Source: Streptomyces sp. NRRL S-1022 (GTDB lineage Bacteria; Actinomycetota; Actinomycetes; Streptomycetales; Streptomycetaceae). From it: a stretch of 64,000 bases of DNA. The stretch is from NCBI RefSeq assembly GCF_000720135.1, contig NZ_JOIU01000006.1:1-64000 (forward strand). The letters are read 5' to 3'. The translations under genes were made by a program, and so were the position numbers. Under the pieces are notes generated by a model. That model was not told the origin of the DNA, searched no databases, and worked only from the letters and a program-made list of their open reading frames with translations. The stretch's first letter is position 1. Every line of letters begins with the position of its first letter. Below are positions 49,114 through 56,547 of this stretch, one piece after another.

Positions 49114-50097
49114 TCAGGAGGCTGCGCTCCGGTCACCCTCCGCACACCCGCGGCCGGCAGCGGGCCGCCCCGCGAGCCAGTCGGCGATGGTGGCGGCGAT
49201 CGGCTGGCCGGTGTCCATCTCCACGAAGCCGAACTGGCCGGACTGGTTGCACTCCAGGAACCACCAGATGCCGTCGGCGTCCTCCGCGAAGTCGAAGGCG
49301 CCGTACGCCAGTTCCGCGCCCGCCATGTAGCGCAGCACGCCCTCGGCGACGCGCGGCGGCACGTCCGCGGGCAGCCAGGGGGAGACCGACGGTGCGAAAC
49401 GCACGTCCACGTCGTCCGGACGGGCGTCCGGATCGGCGGGCTTGCGTGCGGCCAGCAGGGTGTCGCCGACGACGGTGAGCCGGATGTCGGCCCGTTTGGC
49501 GACCCGCCGTTGCAGCAGCGTCGGACCGAAGGCCACCGCGGTGAAATCGGCGTCCGGCGCCACCCGGCTGGTCGGCACCGCCCGGGGCGGCTCCTGCGGA
49601 TGCGCGCCGGAGACCGGTTTGACCACCAGGTCCGGGAAGCGTTCCGCGAACTCCCGCGCGGCCTGCGGGAACGTCGTGATGAGGGTGGCCGGCACCGGCA
49701 GGCCGCTGCGCTGGGCCAGGTGCAGCTGCCAGGGCTTGTGCCGGGCCCGGCGGGCGGCGTCCGGATGGTTCATCCAGCGGGCGTCGCTCCAGCGCAGCAT
49801 GCCGTACAGCGCCTGCGCCGACTCCTCCGTCAGCCAGGCGGACGGCTGGGCGGCGCGGGCGGCCGGGGTTCCCGGCCTGCGCACCCAGACGGAGCGCAGG
49901 CCGTTCATGCTCACCAGGCGCCCGCCGACGGACAGGTGTCCCCGGCAGGCGCCCTGCACGTACTCGCCCGACAGCGCCACCCCGTTGGTCAGATCGGCGG
50001 GGTCGAGCCGGACGACGGGCACCCCAAAGTCGCCCAGCCGGAGGACCACCATGTCCGCCGTCACGTCCTCTTCACTGGTCAGGATGAGCACGGTCAT
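49114..50097 (-). CDS. tgmB: ATP-grasp RiPP maturase (TgmB-like graspetide ligase)
   Basis: A 327-residue ATP-grasp ligase of the family that forms ester or amide crosslinks in graspetides. N-terminal MTVLILTSEEDVTADMVVLR is the usual opening (MvdD-like pre-ATP-grasp domain); the ATP-grasp core includes FPDLVVKPVSGAHPQEPPRA, TLLQRRVAKRADIRLTVVGD and the Mg-binding IWWFLECNQSGQFGFVE. The precursor gene ends 17 bases upstream. In known Streptomyces tgmABC sets a methyltransferase follows; none is here. Confidence 0.92.
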   Translation of the reverse strand: MTVLILTSEEDVTADMVVLRLGDFGVPVVRLDPADLTNGVALSGEYVQGACRGHLSVGGRLVSMNGLRSVWVRRPGTPAARAAQPSAWLTEESAQALYGMLRWSDARWMNHPDAARRARHKPWQLHLAQRSGLPVPATLITTFPQAAREFAERFPDLVVKPVSGAHPQEPPRAVPTSRVAPDADFTAVAFGPTLLQRRVAKRADIRLTVVGDTLLAARKPADPDARPDDVDVRFAPSVSPWLPADVPPRVAEGVLRYMAGAELAYGAFDFAEDADGIWWFLECNQSGQFGFVEMDTGQPIAATIADWLAGRPAAGRGCAEGDRSAAS

Positions 50098-50114: not shown

Positions 50115-50306
50115 TCAGTCGTCGAAGTGCGTCTTGGAACCGGCCGTCGAGGTCGTGGTTCCCAGCGCTCTCAGGGTCACATGGTCGGTGGCGGCGATCC
50201 GCCCGTCCGGGAGGACGTTCAACTGCAGTCCGGAGTCGTACGCGTACGGTGCGGTGACGTCCAACTGCACAGCGGGGCGCGCGTAGTTGAGCGTGAACGG
50301 TTGCAT
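50115..50306 (-). CDS. tgmA: ATP-grasp-modified RiPP precursor (TgmA-like)
   Basis: A 63-residue precursor of the 'putative ATP-grasp-modified RiPP' family. The leader begins MQPFTLNYARPAVQLDVTAP and has the conserved Tyr-Asp-rich recognition part YAYDSGLQLNVLPDGR. The C-terminal core region TLRALGTTTSTAGSKTHFDD offers several Thr/Ser/Lys donors and two terminal Asp acceptors for macrolactone or macrolactam formation. ATG at 50306 follows AGGGAGAGACC. Which residues are linked cannot be told from sequence. Confidence 0.9.
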   Translation of the reverse strand: MQPFTLNYARPAVQLDVTAPYAYDSGLQLNVLPDGRIAATDHVTLRALGTTTSTAGSKTHFDD

Positions 50307-50371: not shown

Positions 50372-51274
50372 TCAGTGATCGCGGCTCGGAGGGGTGGCCC
50401 GGCGGGGTCGTCCCGCGAGCGCGTTCCGCGCCGCCGCCAGCGCCTGTTCGGCGTACCCGCGTCCGAACAGCACCGCGTGCACCAGCAACGGGAAGAGCTG
50501 GTGCAGCCCCACCCGGTCCCGCCAGCCGTCGGCCAGTGGCGCCGCCTGCCGGTAACCGGCGAGTACCCGGTCCAGGTGGGGACAGCCGAACAGCCGGAGC
50601 ATCGCCAGGTCGGTCTCCCGGTGCCCGCCGTGCGCGGCCGGGTCGATGAGCCGGACCTCGCCGTCGGCGCCCCACAGCACGTTCCCGTTCCACAGGTCGC
50701 CGTGCAGCCGGGCGGGCGGCTCCGGCGGGCCCGCCAGCTCCGGCAGCCGGGCGCAGACCTGCTCGAACACGGCCGCCTCGCCCGGGCGGAGCGTGCCGCG
50801 GTCGACCGCGCCGCGCACGTAGGGCAGCACGCGGTGCTCGGCGTACCAGCGGGGCCAGTCGGTGCCCGGTGCGTTCCGCATGGGGGCGCGGCCGATCCAG
50901 GCGTCCTCCGGGCCGCCGGGCGGGGGCGCCCCGAAGCGGGGTGCGCCGGCCGCGTGCAATGCGGCCAGCGCTTGGCCGAAAAGCAGCGCTGCCTCGGGGT
51001 CGGGGGAGTCGGTCGGCACTCGCTCGGTCACCATCCAGTGCTCGTCGTGCCCGAGCACGGCCGGCACCCGCACCGCGTCCGCTGCGGCCAGCCAGCGCAG
51101 CCCCGCCACCTCGGCGCGCACCGCCCGGGGACCGTCGCCACGCTTGACCATCACCGGAGTTCCGCCGTCCAGCAGTACTTCGGCGGGGGACCCCGACGCC
51201 CGCCGGGTCCCGGTGACCGGCCGTCCGGTGAGCCGGGCCGCCACCTGTCCTGGATCCTCGTCTCGGTTGACCAC
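50372..51274 (-). CDS. Fructosamine kinase/aminoglycoside phosphotransferase-fold protein
   Basis: A 300-residue kinase-like protein of the fructosamine-3-kinase family. The Lys region is TPVMVKRGDGPRAVRAEVAG, the catalytic loop ARLHGDLWNGNVLWGADGEV contains HGDxWxxN, and the metal Asp lies in RLIDPAAHGGHRETDLAMLR. Such enzymes phosphorylate Amadori products and related small molecules. GTG at 51274 (VVNRDEDPG) is chosen. It is upstream of tgmA on the same strand and divergent from the cyclodipeptide synthase gene; relation to either product is unknown. Confidence 0.88.
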   Translation of the reverse strand: MVNRDEDPGQVAARLTGRPVTGTRRASGSPAEVLLDGGTPVMVKRGDGPRAVRAEVAGLRWLAAADAVRVPAVLGHDEHWMVTERVPTDSPDPEAALLFGQALAALHAAGAPRFGAPPPGGPEDAWIGRAPMRNAPGTDWPRWYAEHRVLPYVRGAVDRGTLRPGEAAVFEQVCARLPELAGPPEPPARLHGDLWNGNVLWGADGEVRLIDPAAHGGHRETDLAMLRLFGCPHLDRVLAGYRQAAPLADGWRDRVGLHQLFPLLVHAVLFGRGYAEQALAAARNALAGRPRRATPPSRDH

Positions 51275-51385
51275 GGCCCCAGGGTACGACCCGCAATCAA
51301 GGCCGCTCGCCGGGCACTTCAACCGTTGATACGACTGTTTCCGGCCAAACCCAGGCGCTCACTACCCGTATTGATCTCGTACCGC

Positions 51386-51391: not shown

Positions 51392-51463
51392 GAGGGCGCC
51401 GCGTCGCCACACCGGGGGCACAGGGCCTCCCAGGGACTAGCGCGCGGCGGAGGAATCTCCCCC

Positions 51464-52174
51464 GTGACCACAGCATCCGTGCTGATGGCCGACGTCTTCG
51501 AAGTCCAGCCGTACACCTCCCACTGCGAGGTCATCCTCAGGGAGGGCGCACACGCCGTGATCGGTGTGTCCCCGGGCAACAGCTACTTCTCCGCCCGGCG
51601 CCTGCACGACCTCACCCGCTGGGGGCTGGACCACTTCGACCGGGTCGACTTCGTCTACACCGACCTGTACGTCGCCGAGATGTACGAGGCCTCCGGCTAT
51701 CCACCGGACGAGGCCCGCCGCAAGGCAGTGAAGAACCTGCGCGGGGTGCGCGCCAAGGTCCGTGACGCGGTGTCGGCGGCCGACCCGGACGGCGTCCGGC
51801 TGGACTGGCATCCGATGTCCGAATTCCGTACCAACCCCGCCTATCAGGAGATCCACCGGCAGCTGCAGGAGCGGCTGGTCTCCGACGGTGCTTTCCGGTC
51901 CGTCTGCGAGACCCTGGTGAATCGTTTCCTCATGGCGCGCGGCGAGACACCGACCGAACGGCAGCGCGCCGTGTGCCTGGAGTACGTGTGCGCCGAGGCC
52001 CCGCTGTTCCTGGACACCCCGGCCATCCTCAGGGTGCCCTCCTCGCTCAACTGCTACCACCAACTCCTGCCGATGGCCGAGCTTTTGTATTCCCGCGGTG
52101 CCGGCCTGCGTGCCTCCCGCAACCAGGGCCACGCCATCGTCACGCCCACCGCCCTGGAAGGAGCCGCGGAATGA
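51464..52174 (+). CDS. tRNA-dependent cyclodipeptide synthase, NYH subfamily
   Basis: A 236-residue cyclodipeptide synthase that joins two aminoacyl-tRNAs into a diketopiperazine. The nucleophile is Ser36 in VIGVSPGNSYFSARRL; Tyr174 and Glu178 in CLEYVCAEAPLFLDTPAIL match AlbC Tyr178 and Glu182. Asn39, Tyr198 and His199 (LNCYHQLLP) place it in the NYH subfamily with AlbC. GTG at 51464 follows GGAGGAATCTCCCCC. The stop overlaps the P450 ATG by 4 bases. The two amino acids cannot be assigned confidently without comparing pocket residues. Confidence 0.95.
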   Translation: MTTASVLMADVFEVQPYTSHCEVILREGAHAVIGVSPGNSYFSARRLHDLTRWGLDHFDRVDFVYTDLYVAEMYEASGYPPDEARRKAVKNLRGVRAKVRDAVSAADPDGVRLDWHPMSEFRTNPAYQEIHRQLQERLVSDGAFRSVCETLVNRFLMARGETPTERQRAVCLEYVCAEAPLFLDTPAILRVPSSLNCYHQLLPMAELLYSRGAGLRASRNQGHAIVTPTALEGAAE

Positions 52175-53382
52175 CCACCGCGTCCGACACCGCCCCCGAC
52201 CACCCTCCCCTGCCCGCCTTCCCGTTCTGCTGGGACGGCACCCGGGTGCCCGCCGAGGTCGCGGAACTGCGCGAGGCCACCCCGGTACGGCGAGTGCGGA
52301 CCATCGCCGGCGACGAGGCGTGGCTGGTCTCCTCCTACGAGCTGTGCGCGCAGGTGCTCAAGGACGACCGGTTCTCCCTCAAGGACACCTCCGCACCCGG
52401 CGTTCCCCGCCAGTACGCGCTCACGATCCCGCCCGAGGTCGTGAACAACATGGGCAACATCACCGGGGCGGGGCTGCGCCGCGCGGTGATGAAGGCGCTC
52501 AACCCCAAGGCGCCGGGACTCACCGACTGGCTGCGCGCGGAGGCCCACCGCCTGGTGGACCTCATCGTCGCCGACGGGCCGACGGCCGACCTGCGCGGGG
52601 CGTTCTGCGAGCCGTACTCGGCCGGGATGCACTGCCGCATCCTCGGCATCCCGCAGACCGAGGCCCCCGCCTTCCTGCGCAGCCTCGACATCGCCTTCAT
52701 GAACTCCCCGTGCCCGGTCACCGGCGCGCGGCTCAACTGGGACCGGGACATCGCCCGTATGGCGGCCCTGCTCGACGACCCGGCGACGCACGGCCTGATG
52801 GGCGAACTCGCCGCCCTGCGCGACGATCCCGACTACGCGCACCTGAGCGACGAGATGCTGGCCACCGTCGGCGTCACCCTGTTCGGCGCCGGTGTCATCT
52901 CCACCTCGGGCTTCCTCGCCATGGCCCTGGTCCACCTGCTCACCCACCCCATCGCCCGCGACCTGCTGCGGGACCGCCCCGACCTGATCGGCCCCGGCGT
53001 GGAGGAGCTGCTGCGGGTGAACCTCTCCATCGGCGACGCCCTGCCCCGCCTCGCCCTGGAGGACGTCCGGCTCGGCGACGTCGGCATCCGCGCCGGCGAG
53101 CTCGTCCTCGTCCTGGTGGAGGGCGCCAACCTCGACCCGGAGAAGTTCCCCGACCCGCACCGCTTCGACGTCCACCGCGACAACACCGCCGACCACCTCT
53201 CCTTCGGCGGCGGCGCCCACTACTGCCCCGCCACCGCCCTCGGCCGCGCACACGCCCGCATCGCCCTGGAGGTCCTGCTCGACCGGCTGCCCGACCTCGC
53301 CCTCGCGGTCCCGGCGAGCCAACTGGTCTGGCGCACCGGCTTCATGAAACGGATCCCCGAACGGCTCCCGGTGGCCTGGTGA
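52171..53382 (+). CDS. CYP121-like cytochrome P450, cyclodipeptide-tailoring
   Basis: A 403-residue P450 that closely resembles Mycobacterium CYP121: the I-helix is VGVTLFGAGVISTSGFLAMA, the K-helix region is GVEELLRVNLSIGDALPRL, the heme loop is LSFGGGAHYCPATALGRAHA with Cys352, and the C-terminus is LVWRTGFMKRIPERLPVAW. In M. tuberculosis CYP121 couples the tyrosines of cyclo(Tyr-Tyr); related Streptomyces P450s couple or guaninylate Trp-containing diketopiperazines. The base after the Cys is Pro. It overlaps the synthase stop by 4 bases (ATGA), so it should oxidise its product. Confidence 0.93.
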   Translation: MTTASDTAPDHPPLPAFPFCWDGTRVPAEVAELREATPVRRVRTIAGDEAWLVSSYELCAQVLKDDRFSLKDTSAPGVPRQYALTIPPEVVNNMGNITGAGLRRAVMKALNPKAPGLTDWLRAEAHRLVDLIVADGPTADLRGAFCEPYSAGMHCRILGIPQTEAPAFLRSLDIAFMNSPCPVTGARLNWDRDIARMAALLDDPATHGLMGELAALRDDPDYAHLSDEMLATVGVTLFGAGVISTSGFLAMALVHLLTHPIARDLLRDRPDLIGPGVEELLRVNLSIGDALPRLALEDVRLGDVGIRAGELVLVLVEGANLDPEKFPDPHRFDVHRDNTADHLSFGGGAHYCPATALGRAHARIALEVLLDRLPDLALAVPASQLVWRTGFMKRIPERLPVAW

Positions 53383-53860
53383 CCCACGGCACCACGTCCT
53401 CCCTACGGCGCCCCGGCCCGGCACGCCCGGCCGGGGCCGCCGGGGCCGGAGCGCTCCTCGGCGACCGACGGGGCACGCCCCCGGGTCTCCACCTCCCCCC
53501 GGCACCCCCGACTCACCGACCGCCCCGGCACCCCGACTCACCGACCGCCCCGGCCGGCGACACCGGCAGCGCGGACCAGACACCGGCACGCTCGACACCC
53601 GGCCCACGCCCGGCACGCGATGCCCGGCCCGCTCGGCGCCCGGCGCGCTCCGGGGGCACGGGTGAACGGTCCGCCGCGAGCCGCCCGGCGCCCGGGCGCT
53701 CTGACGGGCCCACGGGGCACGTTCCCCGCTCACGCCCCCGGCAGCCCCACCGCCGACCGCGCGGACCAGCGGCTCCGGCAGCGTGACCGACGAGCAGCAC
53801 GTTCCCTCGCTGCTCGTCTCCTCGGCTCCTCAGCGACCGGCGGGGTGGCTCCTGGGCTCC
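53383..53860. other. Gene-poor spacer with tandem repeats
   Basis: About 480 bases between convergent genes. It includes a 25/26-bp tandem pair (53499-53524 and 53525-53549, each containing GACTCACCGACCGCC) and two 23-bp copies of a unit containing CTCAGCGACCGGCGGGG (53824-53846 and 53855-53877). The second copy covers the stop codon of the SCO6745-family gene. No coding frame is credible. Confidence 0.7.
53789..53818. terminator. Terminator hairpin between P450 and SCO6745-family gene
   Basis: A perfect 10-bp stem GACGAGCAGC / GCTGCTCGTC with a 10-base loop, located in the convergent spacer about 45 bases past the stop of the leftward gene. Confidence 0.6.
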
Positions 53861-54739
53861 TCAGCGACCGGCGGGGTACGTCCCCCCGGTCAGCCCCGCC
53901 GGATTCCCGGCCGGCAGGAGTCCCGACCCGCCGACCGCGCGGGCCAGTGGCTCCAGCAGTGTGGCCAGGTGTCCGCTCCGCTCGGTGCCCAGGGCGCTCC
54001 ACGGGCCCTCGGCGGCCGCGTCGGTGAGGGCCTCGGCCTCCGCGCGCAGGGCCGCTCCCGCGGGGGTGAGCGAACCGTCCGCCGCGAGCCGGCCGTCCGT
54101 GCGCAGCCGCGCCGCGGCCGCCGCCCAGTCCTCCGCCGGCCACTTCCGCGTCTCGCGCAGGAAGGTCCCGTCGGACTCGCCGGCCGCCGCCTTGAGGACC
54201 ATGGCCTCGACAGGCCCGATCCCCAGGCCGACCAGCACCGCCACATGGGAGTCACCGCGGTGCTCGCGCAGGGTCGTCAGGGCCTGCCACAGGCGCGCGG
54301 TGGGCCGGCCGGGGCGCTCCAGCGCCTGGTTGGCGGCGCCCAGCACCCGGCCCGCCGTGTCCGCGCCGGCGGCGGCCTCCCAGGCGAGGTCCGCTGCCTC
54401 CGCGAACGCGGCCGACGCGACGGTGTCCGCCCCGAACAGCCGGGTCATCGCCGCGTCCACCGCCTCCAGACGGGCCGCCAGCGCGTCCGCCGGAGCGGCG
54501 TACGCCCAGGCATCCGGCAGCGCCCGGGCCACCCGCGCGGGGTGGAAGACGTAGAAACAGCTCGTCACCACGGACGGAGGCGCCGCGCCGAGCGGGGCGG
54601 CGCGCAGCGCGAAGTAGCCCATCCAGAATCCGCGCAGCCCGAGCCCGTCCGCCGCCCGGTGCACCTCCGGTGCGAAGTACACGAGCTGGTGCACCGGCTC
54701 GTACCGCTCCCACAGGGCCCGTGCCATTCCGTCCGCCAC
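53861..54739 (-). CDS. SCO6745 family protein
   Basis: A 292-residue protein of the actinobacterial SCO6745 family, recognised from YEPVHQLVYFAPEVHRAADG, GLRGFWMGYFALRAAPLG, VTSCFYVFHPARVARALPDA and the C-terminal winged-helix-like region KWPAEDWAAAAARLRTDGRL with GSLTPAGAALRAEAEALTDA. Function is unknown; the C-terminal half resembles a helix-turn-helix fold. GTG at 54739 follows GGGAGGAAGC. A perfect palindrome 48 bases upstream suggests regulation by a TetR-type protein. Confidence 0.85.
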   Translation of the reverse strand: MADGMARALWERYEPVHQLVYFAPEVHRAADGLGLRGFWMGYFALRAAPLGAAPPSVVTSCFYVFHPARVARALPDAWAYAAPADALAARLEAVDAAMTRLFGADTVASAAFAEAADLAWEAAAGADTAGRVLGAANQALERPGRPTARLWQALTTLREHRGDSHVAVLVGLGIGPVEAMVLKAAAGESDGTFLRETRKWPAEDWAAAAARLRTDGRLAADGSLTPAGAALRAEAEALTDAAAEGPWSALGTERSGHLATLLEPLARAVGGSGLLPAGNPAGLTGGTYPAGR

Positions 54740-54787
54740 CGCTTCCTCCCGCCACGTCGGCCTGCCGTGCTGTCGGCACCAGCCTGC

Positions 54788-54807
54788 GTTATGACAGCGG
54801 TCATAAC
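54788..54807. promoter_or_regulatory. Perfect palindromic operator upstream of SCO6745-family gene
   Basis: GTTATGAC-AGCG-GTCATAAC, a perfect 8-bp inverted repeat with a 4-base spacer, in an AT-rich patch 48 bases before the gene's GTG. Its size and AT content fit a TetR-family operator. No regulator gene is adjacent. Confidence 0.7.
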
Positions 54808-55110
54808 AAGAGGGGGAGCCGGTGAGGGCTCGCGTCACCCGGGCCGCGGAGGCGCCGTCGGAGCCGGACGCACATGACCGGGGGCACCTCGCTCGCCCGG
54901 TCACTCCGGCAGGCGTACGACCGCTTCGGCGATTGGCCCGTACGAGGGGCCCCGGACCCGGCGCGCTGGGGCAGACGGGTGGCGTGATGACCCGGCTGGG
55001 CGGCCCGGATGGTGGGAGTCATGGGCCTCACTGACGGTGGTTCATGTCGAGGCCGGGTCCACCCAGCTGATGAGGTATCCGCTGCCCGGTCACGGCGGAA
55101 GGACATCACT

Positions 55111-55725
55111 ATGCGCTCTGCCCGCATGATTTTGGCAACGGCGGCTGCCGCCGCCGCCCTGGCCTTCGCCACACCCGGCGCCGCGTTCGCCGTACCGGCC
55201 GAGCGCGACAGCGGCGGGGACGACTCCTCGTACAGCAAGGAGCACGACAGCGGCTCCGACCGTGAGGACCAGGGATCGGACGACGACCAGGACAACGACT
55301 ACGGCAACAAGCGCGGCTCCGGGCGAGAACACGACGGGCCGCGCGGCGGAATGCACACGGGTGGCGGAGCCCTCGCCGCAGTGCGCAGCGGCGACTGGGG
55401 TTCGGGCGACGACAGCCGCTTCGACCCCGAGAGCTACAAGGACAAGGGCGACGACAGCGAAGAGGAAGGGGGCGGCAAGAGCGAGAAGGGCGAGAAGAGT
55501 GGCAGGGGCGAGAAAGGCGAGAAGGGCGAGAAGGGTGAGAGGGGGGACAAGGGCGACAAGAGCGAGTGGGGTGACGACCACGAGAAGCCGCGCGGCGGCA
55601 TGCACACCGGCGGCGGCGCGCTCGCCACGCCGGGTGTCACCGCGGGCGGTCTCGCCGTGCTCGCCGTAGGCGCCGCCGGCGCGTACGCGCTGCGCCGCAG
55701 GAAGGCCGCCGAGCCGGTGTCCTGA
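55111..55725 (+). CDS. Wall-associated repeat protein, probable class F sortase substrate
   Basis: A 204-residue exported protein. A signal peptide (MILATAAAAAALAFATPGAA) is followed by acidic, Asp/Ser-rich sequence, the motif PRGGMHTGGGALA at residues 77-89, a collagen-like charged GEKGEKGEKGERGDKGDK stretch, a second PRGGMHTGGGALA at 160-172, a hydrophobic segment (176-194) and an RRRK tail. The second motif, hydrophobic span and basic tail are ordered like a sortase signal, but there is no LPXTG. A class F sortase gene follows 153 bases later. ATG at 55111 follows GGAAGGACATCACT. Confidence 0.8.
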   Translation: MRSARMILATAAAAAALAFATPGAAFAVPAERDSGGDDSSYSKEHDSGSDREDQGSDDDQDNDYGNKRGSGREHDGPRGGMHTGGGALAAVRSGDWGSGDDSRFDPESYKDKGDDSEEEGGGKSEKGEKSGRGEKGEKGEKGERGDKGDKSEWGDDHEKPRGGMHTGGGALATPGVTAGGLAVLAVGAAGAYALRRRKAAEPVS

Positions 55726-55878
55726 CGGGCCGGAATGTCCCAGGGGCTGCGGACGCCGTCGGCGCGCGCACCGCGTCGGCGGCCCGCGCCCCCTGCGTTC
55801 CGCCCCGGGCGCCGGCCCCGGCCGCGTCTCGACCCCGTCCCGACCCCGTGCTGCCCTGCATGAGCGAGGTGGTGTCCG

Positions 55879-56547
55879 ATGGCAGCAGATCCCTCCTCTC
55901 CCACCCCCTCGGAACCGGCCGCGGCCGCCGGCCGCGGCGGGCGGCTCACGCTGTGGGGCGTGGCGGCCGTCTTCCTCGCCGTCAGCATGTTCGGCGGACG
56001 TCACCAGCCGGACGACACACCGCAGGCGCCCCGTGCCTCGGGCACCGGCACCGCCGCAGCCGCGCCGGCCGACCCGCGCGACACCGGCGCGTCACTGCCC
56101 CGGTCCACACCGACCCGGCTGCACATCCCGAAGATCGACGTGGACGCCCCCTTCACCACCCTGTCCCTCGGCGCCTCGGGCCAGTTGCAGCCGCCACCCG
56201 CCGCCGACACCAACCTCGTCGGCTGGTACGCCGACGGCGCATCGCCCGGCGAGGAGGGCACCGCGATCATCGCCGGGCACGTCGACACGGTGACCTCCGC
56301 GGCCGTCTTCGCCGACCTCTACGAGCTGGAGCGCGGAGACCGGTTCTCCGTGGAACGGGCCGACGGGCGCACGGCGGAGTTCGTCGTGGACAGCGCCGAG
56401 ACCTATCCCAAGGACGACTTCCCCAGCGAACGGGTGTACGCGGACGCCTCGCGCCCCGAGGTCCGGCTCATCACCTGCGCCGGGGACTACGACCACACGG
56501 TGCGGGACTACACCGACAACCTGGTCGTCTTCGCCCACCTGGTGTGA
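55879..56547 (+). CDS. Class F sortase
   Basis: A 222-residue sortase with an N-terminal membrane anchor (LTLWGVAAVFLAVSMFG, about 23-40) and a sortase barrel. Catalytic residues are His134 in IIAGHVDTVTSAAVF, Cys200 in VRLITCAGDYDHTV and Arg209 in RDYTDNLVVFAHLV. Residue pattern and short length match actinobacterial class F. ATG at 55879 follows GAGGTGGTGTCCG. The upstream exported protein with a membrane-plus-basic tail is the obvious candidate substrate. Confidence 0.92.
   Translation: MAADPSSPTPSEPAAAAGRGGRLTLWGVAAVFLAVSMFGGRHQPDDTPQAPRASGTGTAAAAPADPRDTGASLPRSTPTRLHIPKIDVDAPFTTLSLGASGQLQPPPAADTNLVGWYADGASPGEEGTAIIAGHVDTVTSAAVFADLYELERGDRFSVERADGRTAEFVVDSAETYPKDDFPSERVYADASRPEVRLITCAGDYDHTVRDYTDNLVVFAHLV

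Follow-up and report, generated by a model that had tools for sequence, protein, structure and literature searches.

The subject of this study is a pair of adjacent genes, encoding a cyclodipeptide synthase (CDPS) and a cytochrome P450, in a stretch of 64,000 nucleotides from Streptomyces sp. NRRL S-1022 (positions 1 to 64,000 of contig NZ_JOIU01000006.1), referred to here as the window (Table 1). Our findings indicate that the pair very probably constitutes a gym-type two-gene pathway, in which the synthase would produce cyclo(L-Tyr-L-Tyr) (cYY; cYF, cYA and cWW below are likewise named by their one-letter amino acid codes) and the P450 would convert this scaffold to mycocyclosin or to a nucleobase adduct. 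The gym loci were reportedly first described by Liu et al. in Angew. Chem. in 2022.

Table 1. Features of the locus and of its flanks, in window coordinates
Feature	Position	Strand	Details
Conserved ribosome-binding region of synthase gene, GCGGCGGAGGA	51444..51454	+	8 upstream regions aligned; GGAGG in 8/8
Cyclodipeptide synthase (NYH subfamily, predicted cyclo(L-Tyr-L-Tyr) specificity group, gymA-like)	51464..52174	+	GTG start, TGA stop, 236 aa
Stop of synthase gene overlapping start of P450 gene (ATGA)	52171..52174	+	From gene coordinates; overlap at the same place in 7/7 close relatives
Cytochrome P450, GymB type (CYP121 clade)	52171..53382	+	ATG start, TGA stop, 403 aa; haem Cys352
Fructosamine-kinase-family gene	50372-51322	-	Flank of the pair
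SCO6745-family gene	53861-54904	-	Other flank of the pair
Graspetide (ATP-grasp ribosomally synthesised and post-translationally modified peptide) precursor and maturase pair	49114-50097 and 50115-50306	-	Beyond the fructosamine-kinase gene

Layout and conservation of the gene pair

Both reading frames are intact. The synthase matches the Pfam CDPS model over its full length (299.8 bits, cut-off 27) and is the sole match to that model in the 8.9 Mb genome, while the P450 scores 62.7 bits against Pfam p450 (cut-off 22.8); between the flanking genes these two stand alone, with no further tailoring gene. The initial annotation had described a complete and compact pair of an NYH-type synthase and a CYP121-like P450, sharing a 4-bp ATGA overlap, and this description is borne out, the gene coordinates agreeing on the overlap. 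When the window was compared with seven close relatives, all belonging to its own clade, the GGAGG leader and the position of the synthase start were found to recur (GTG in five of the eight, TTG in three), as was the 4-bp overlap (ATGA in seven, GTGA in one). Both genes are under purifying selection, with ratios of nonsynonymous to synonymous substitution rates (dN/dS) of 0.16-0.24 for the P450 and 0.12-0.27 for the synthase in 14 comparisons, seven relatives per gene. The recurrence of leader, start position and overlap in seven relatives, together with dN/dS values within 0.12-0.27, argues that the pairing is not a product of chance.

Specificity determinants of the synthase and the P450

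Alignment of the synthase with AlbC places Ser36, Tyr174 and Glu178 at AlbC S37, Y178 and E182, and Asn39, Tyr198 and His199 at N40, Y202 and H203, in agreement with the earlier statement that the catalytic residues and the NYH trio are kept. In the window synthase, the first specificity pocket (P1, eight residues) has the sequence VGVTMLFN and the second (P2, seven residues) LRFAQLP. The pocket positions were taken from Gondry 2018 (PMC5816076), in which four NYH enzymes with cYY as their main product have P1 VG(I/V)TMLFN and P2 Lx(F/Y)xQLP and the Asn at P1 position 8 is described as indispensable for Tyr. Among the four is an enzyme from S. katrae, the source species of GymB5 as well, that yields cYY at 71.3% together with cYF and cYA (PMC5816076). 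The window synthase thus agrees with these characterised cYY makers in both motifs, including the Asn. It also scores 398.4 bits against NCBIfam NF052540 (cyclodityrosine synthase, cut-off 300), and the prediction of cYY as its main scaffold is well founded because it draws on both the published pocket and this score. The cYY-making Rv2275 of Mycobacterium tuberculosis (2x9q) has the identical P1 and differs in one of seven P2 residues (LRFTQLP), with 141 of 220 aligned residues the same (64%).

The initial annotation had likened the P450 to M. tuberculosis CYP121, and the likeness is real, at 59.0% identity over aligned residues, but the P450 is nearer to GymB1 (71.5%) and GymB5 (66.8%), the two Gym P450 sequences that were compared; PtmB-type enzymes stand at 59.5%. 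Its best two matches among PDB sequences are GymB1 from S. flavidovirens (8q6z, 607.6 bits) and 8q6x, whose PDB title gives GymB5 from S. katrae; that of 8q6y gives GymB5 with cYY and hypoxanthine. A predicted structure of intermediate confidence (mean predicted local distance difference test score 79.2, low at residues 1-9, 83-99 and 344-348) served only for the ranking of PDB entries and their titles. In a tree that included CYP121 and Streptomyces diketopiperazine P450s, one branch (100/100) unites the window enzyme with GymB1, GymB5 and CYP121 and leaves PtmB and 9o4d outside; within it, the window enzyme joins GymB5 in a 98/94 branch. We rely on the deeper 100/100 branch, as L011, L086, CYP121 and GymB5 sit on long branches and the joining of L011 with L086 is possibly false. 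Two NCBIfam models fell below their cut-offs and were not used: pentalenolactone synthase, the best of the P450 models (137.6 bits, cut-off 700), and the CDPS-associated TIGR04538 (85.5 bits, cut-off 500).

Active-site comparison covered 28 positions. Of these, 22 are ligand contacts of CYP121 that come from docking (PMC7049898); to them we added Trp182, Ser237 and residues 344-347 (haem loop), which we take to be further active-site or haem-loop positions of that enzyme. Across 53 rows, one common set of residues is found in 27, GymB1 and GymB5 among them, and eight more, the window and seven members of its clade, depart from this set at a single position, CYP121 283, where they have Ala (window Ala290) in place of Gly, so that the window matches GymB1 and GymB5 at 27 of the 28 positions. 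Sixteen rows, including PtmB and 9o4d, have Ser, Phe and Ile in place of window T236, Y351 and M392, and the P450 of L011 (49% identity), with T, Y and V at these three positions, fits none of the sets. CYP121 differs from the window at nine of the 28; at CYP121 positions 74, 280, 344, 347, 385 and 386 it has N, F, F, G, Q and R, whereas the window, GymB1 and GymB5 have Y, I, Y, A, M and K. The window P450 therefore lacks the Gln385 and Arg386 of CYP121 proper and has Met392 and Lys393 in their place. As Arg386 is reported to influence the redox potential and perhaps to relay protons (PMC7801616), its replacement by Lys could be consequential.

Proposed pathway and its alternatives

It is because GymB1 and GymB5 are closer relatives of the P450 than CYP121 is, and because 27 active-site positions are identical, that we favor a gym-type pair. 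In the pathway that we propose, the synthase would use two Tyr-tRNAs, passing from a tyrosyl-Ser36 form to a dipeptidyl-enzyme, and would release cYY, probably accompanied by small amounts of cYF and cYA. The ATGA overlap would couple translation of the P450 to that of the synthase, the two enzymes thus being made in step. With electrons presumably supplied by redox partners encoded elsewhere, the P450 would oxidise one phenol of cYY, and the oxidised species may then follow either of two routes. In one route, C-C coupling of the two rings would form mycocyclosin. In the other, the oxidised ring would capture a free purine to give a guanine or hypoxanthine adduct, guanine on the phenolic oxygen corresponding to guatyromycine A and hypoxanthine on the ortho carbon to guatyromycine B. 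According to PMC10092475, six two-gene gym loci expressed in S. albus yielded mycocyclosin together with two purine adducts, guatyromycine A, in which guanine is bonded to the phenolic hydroxyl, and guatyromycine B, which carries hypoxanthine at the position ortho to that hydroxyl; the P450s of these loci are described there as the first with a dual function. Because these expressed loci gave them, mycocyclosin and purine adducts are also foreseen for the window pair, the chemistry of which we infer to be identical. The initial annotation had held that the product was not predictable from sequence alone, and in this respect it was too cautious: the scaffold can be predicted as cYY from the P1 and P2 pockets and NF052540, and the tailoring, by analogy with the six gym loci, as ring closure to mycocyclosin, attachment of guanine or hypoxanthine to cYY, or both.

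Several points weigh against this assignment. CYP121 shares the 100/100 branch of the window P450, the grouping of GymB5 with its six closest neighbours is weakly supported (93/39), and the window clade, eight members in the tree, includes none of the five PDB enzymes placed there. Its members also carry Ala at CYP121 Gly283, as do PtmB and L079, although GymB1 and GymB5 have Gly; this Ala290 is the single exception to the agreement of the window pair with the gym group, which extends to gene order, synthase pocket and every other sequence feature compared. A pathway as in Rv2275/CYP121, in which the P450 closes cYY to mycocyclosin without nucleobase transfer, overlaps with our proposal, since gym enzymes produce mycocyclosin too, and it accommodates both the shared branch and a synthase pocket that equals that of Rv2275 save for one P2 residue. 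We nevertheless consider it unlikely, because the P450 is less similar to CYP121 than to either Gym enzyme and has the residues of GymB1 and GymB5, not those of CYP121, at the six positions named above.

The ptm and gut pairs (PtmB, GutD; guanitrypmycins), in which guanine or hypoxanthine is attached to a Trp-containing diketopiperazine, have the same two-gene layout and, in PtmB, the same Ala290; PtmB and the Gut P450 are reported to transfer both bases to cWW (PMC13122648). That the window encodes such a pathway appears very unlikely, as P1 is of the LG(V/I)ALFF type in all 13 loci that combine a synthase with a P450 of the PtmB type, in contrast to the window VGVTMLFN, and the P450 types differ at T236, Y351 and M392. 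Guanine attachment to Trp diketopiperazines, which the initial annotation had listed among the chemistries of known relatives, therefore belongs to pairs that differ from the window pair in both pockets. Even less weight attaches to diketopiperazine dimerases such as NascB, NzeB and AspB, whose scores lie at about 142-148 bits versus 607.6 for GymB1 and for which PDB titles give Trp-containing diketopiperazines, while the window synthase has a Tyr pocket. The pair is also most improbable as a decaying, non-working remnant; a relic of this kind is known in one relative (G020, described below), but here the frames are intact, the catalytic residues are kept and dN/dS is 0.12-0.27.

Within the gym-type reading, the window clade could form a distinct subtype, in which Ala290 narrows the pocket and steers the reaction away from mycocyclosin closure, toward one adduct or toward an unreported purine position or base on cYY. 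The position is counted as pocket-lining in CYP121, but we regard this idea as quite improbable; Ala290 is nonetheless the single feature of the locus that deserves a test at the bench. No report on products of the window clade was found in the literature searched, which covers little gym work. The window locus adds one more example to an already described and widespread two-gene pathway.

Distribution and pairing of the two genes

A survey of 296 congeneric genomes (thresholds of 1e-100 for the P450 and 1e-10 for the synthase) gave a synthase match in 99 genomes and a P450 match in at least 73, the latter being a lower bound because the six best first-look candidates per genome were scored. 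Counted from the P450 side, 81 of 83 matches lie at most 1.5 kb downstream of a synthase match on the same strand. The two P450s with no adjacent synthase match are L081 (G106:C91, 62% identity) and G134:C61:14698-15858 (57%), and synthase matches above 43% with no P450 match beside them also exist, e.g., in G299, in G243:C4 and as a fragment in G290. Genome G106 has four P450 matches and five synthase matches.

Among named genomes, we considered the best 80 of 226 stretches encoding a P450 relative. These are mostly from Streptomyces, with others from Kitasatospora, Streptacidiphilus, Nocardia, Yinghuangia and Actinomadura, and the nearest of the 80 to the window is in S. capoamus JCM 4253 (97% over residues 11-403). 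A synthase ends at most 400 bases upstream of the P450 in all 80, and the full VG(V/I)TMLFN motif is present in 73, the remainder being four that aligned incompletely and three with one substitution.

A set of 51 loci comprised 36 with Tyr-pocket synthases, 14 with Trp-like synthases and one with no synthase. Where a CYP121-like P450 adjoins a cYY synthase in Streptomyces, it is of the gym type in every locus that was typed (30 of the 36 Tyr-pocket loci), while 13 of the 14 Trp-like synthases are accompanied by a PtmB-type P450. The synthase P1 motif and P450 positions 236, 351, 392 and 393 (window numbering) therefore provide a sequence key that distinguishes Tyr-type pairs, Trp-type pairs and CYP121 from one another; it is broken by L011, in which a Trp-like synthase pocket occurs with an outlying P450. 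The wide natural spread of the pairs offers a panel for examining what decides between ring closure and nucleobase transfer. L033 (G182:C321:38077-38749) has a gym-type P450 whose neighbouring synthase consists of two overlapping pieces, which may reflect a broken gene or a sequencing error.

Chromosomal site and neighbouring genes

Of seven close relatives whose 20-kb neighbourhoods were compared, six have the pair enclosed by the two flanking genes listed in Table 1; L074 is the exception, with the kinase gene 8.7 kb off and no SCO6745-family gene found. Sites with no pair were sought in eight pair-less genomes, chosen out of 200 for the closest similarity of their kinase gene. One of these, G102, has no SCO6745-family match, and in the other seven both flanking genes are on one contig. 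In six (G132, G200, G183, G137, G003 and G170) the flanking matches are separated by 77-594 bases, an interval in which tblastn detected neither protein. In G020 (L088) a 2.0-kb gap holds the first synthase codons, a 50-residue piece of the P450 (88% identity) and unrelated coding sequence; by eye, with no family search, the last resembles an alpha/beta hydrolase and a recombinase fragment. From the empty sites in six genomes and the relic in G020, it follows that the synthase and P450 are gained or lost at this site as one module. No third gene was seen to travel with the pair at this site.

The nearby graspetide genes, which match TIGR04186 (precursor; 45 bits, cut-off 25) and TIGR04187 (maturase; 382.8 bits, cut-off 350), were considered as part of the pathway and set aside: among the seven relatives that carry the pair, an ATP-grasp match occurs beyond the kinase gene, 0.4-3.5 kb away, in six, and the 20 kb of L074 has none. 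Downstream of the P450, repeats of the CTCCTCAGCGACCGGCGGGG type were noted by eye at 53816-53880. Farther along, 55009-56547 encodes a repetitive, acidic, secreted-looking protein with no Pfam match, the tail of which was judged by eye, and a sortase gene (Pfam Sortase, 90.3 bits) adjoins it.
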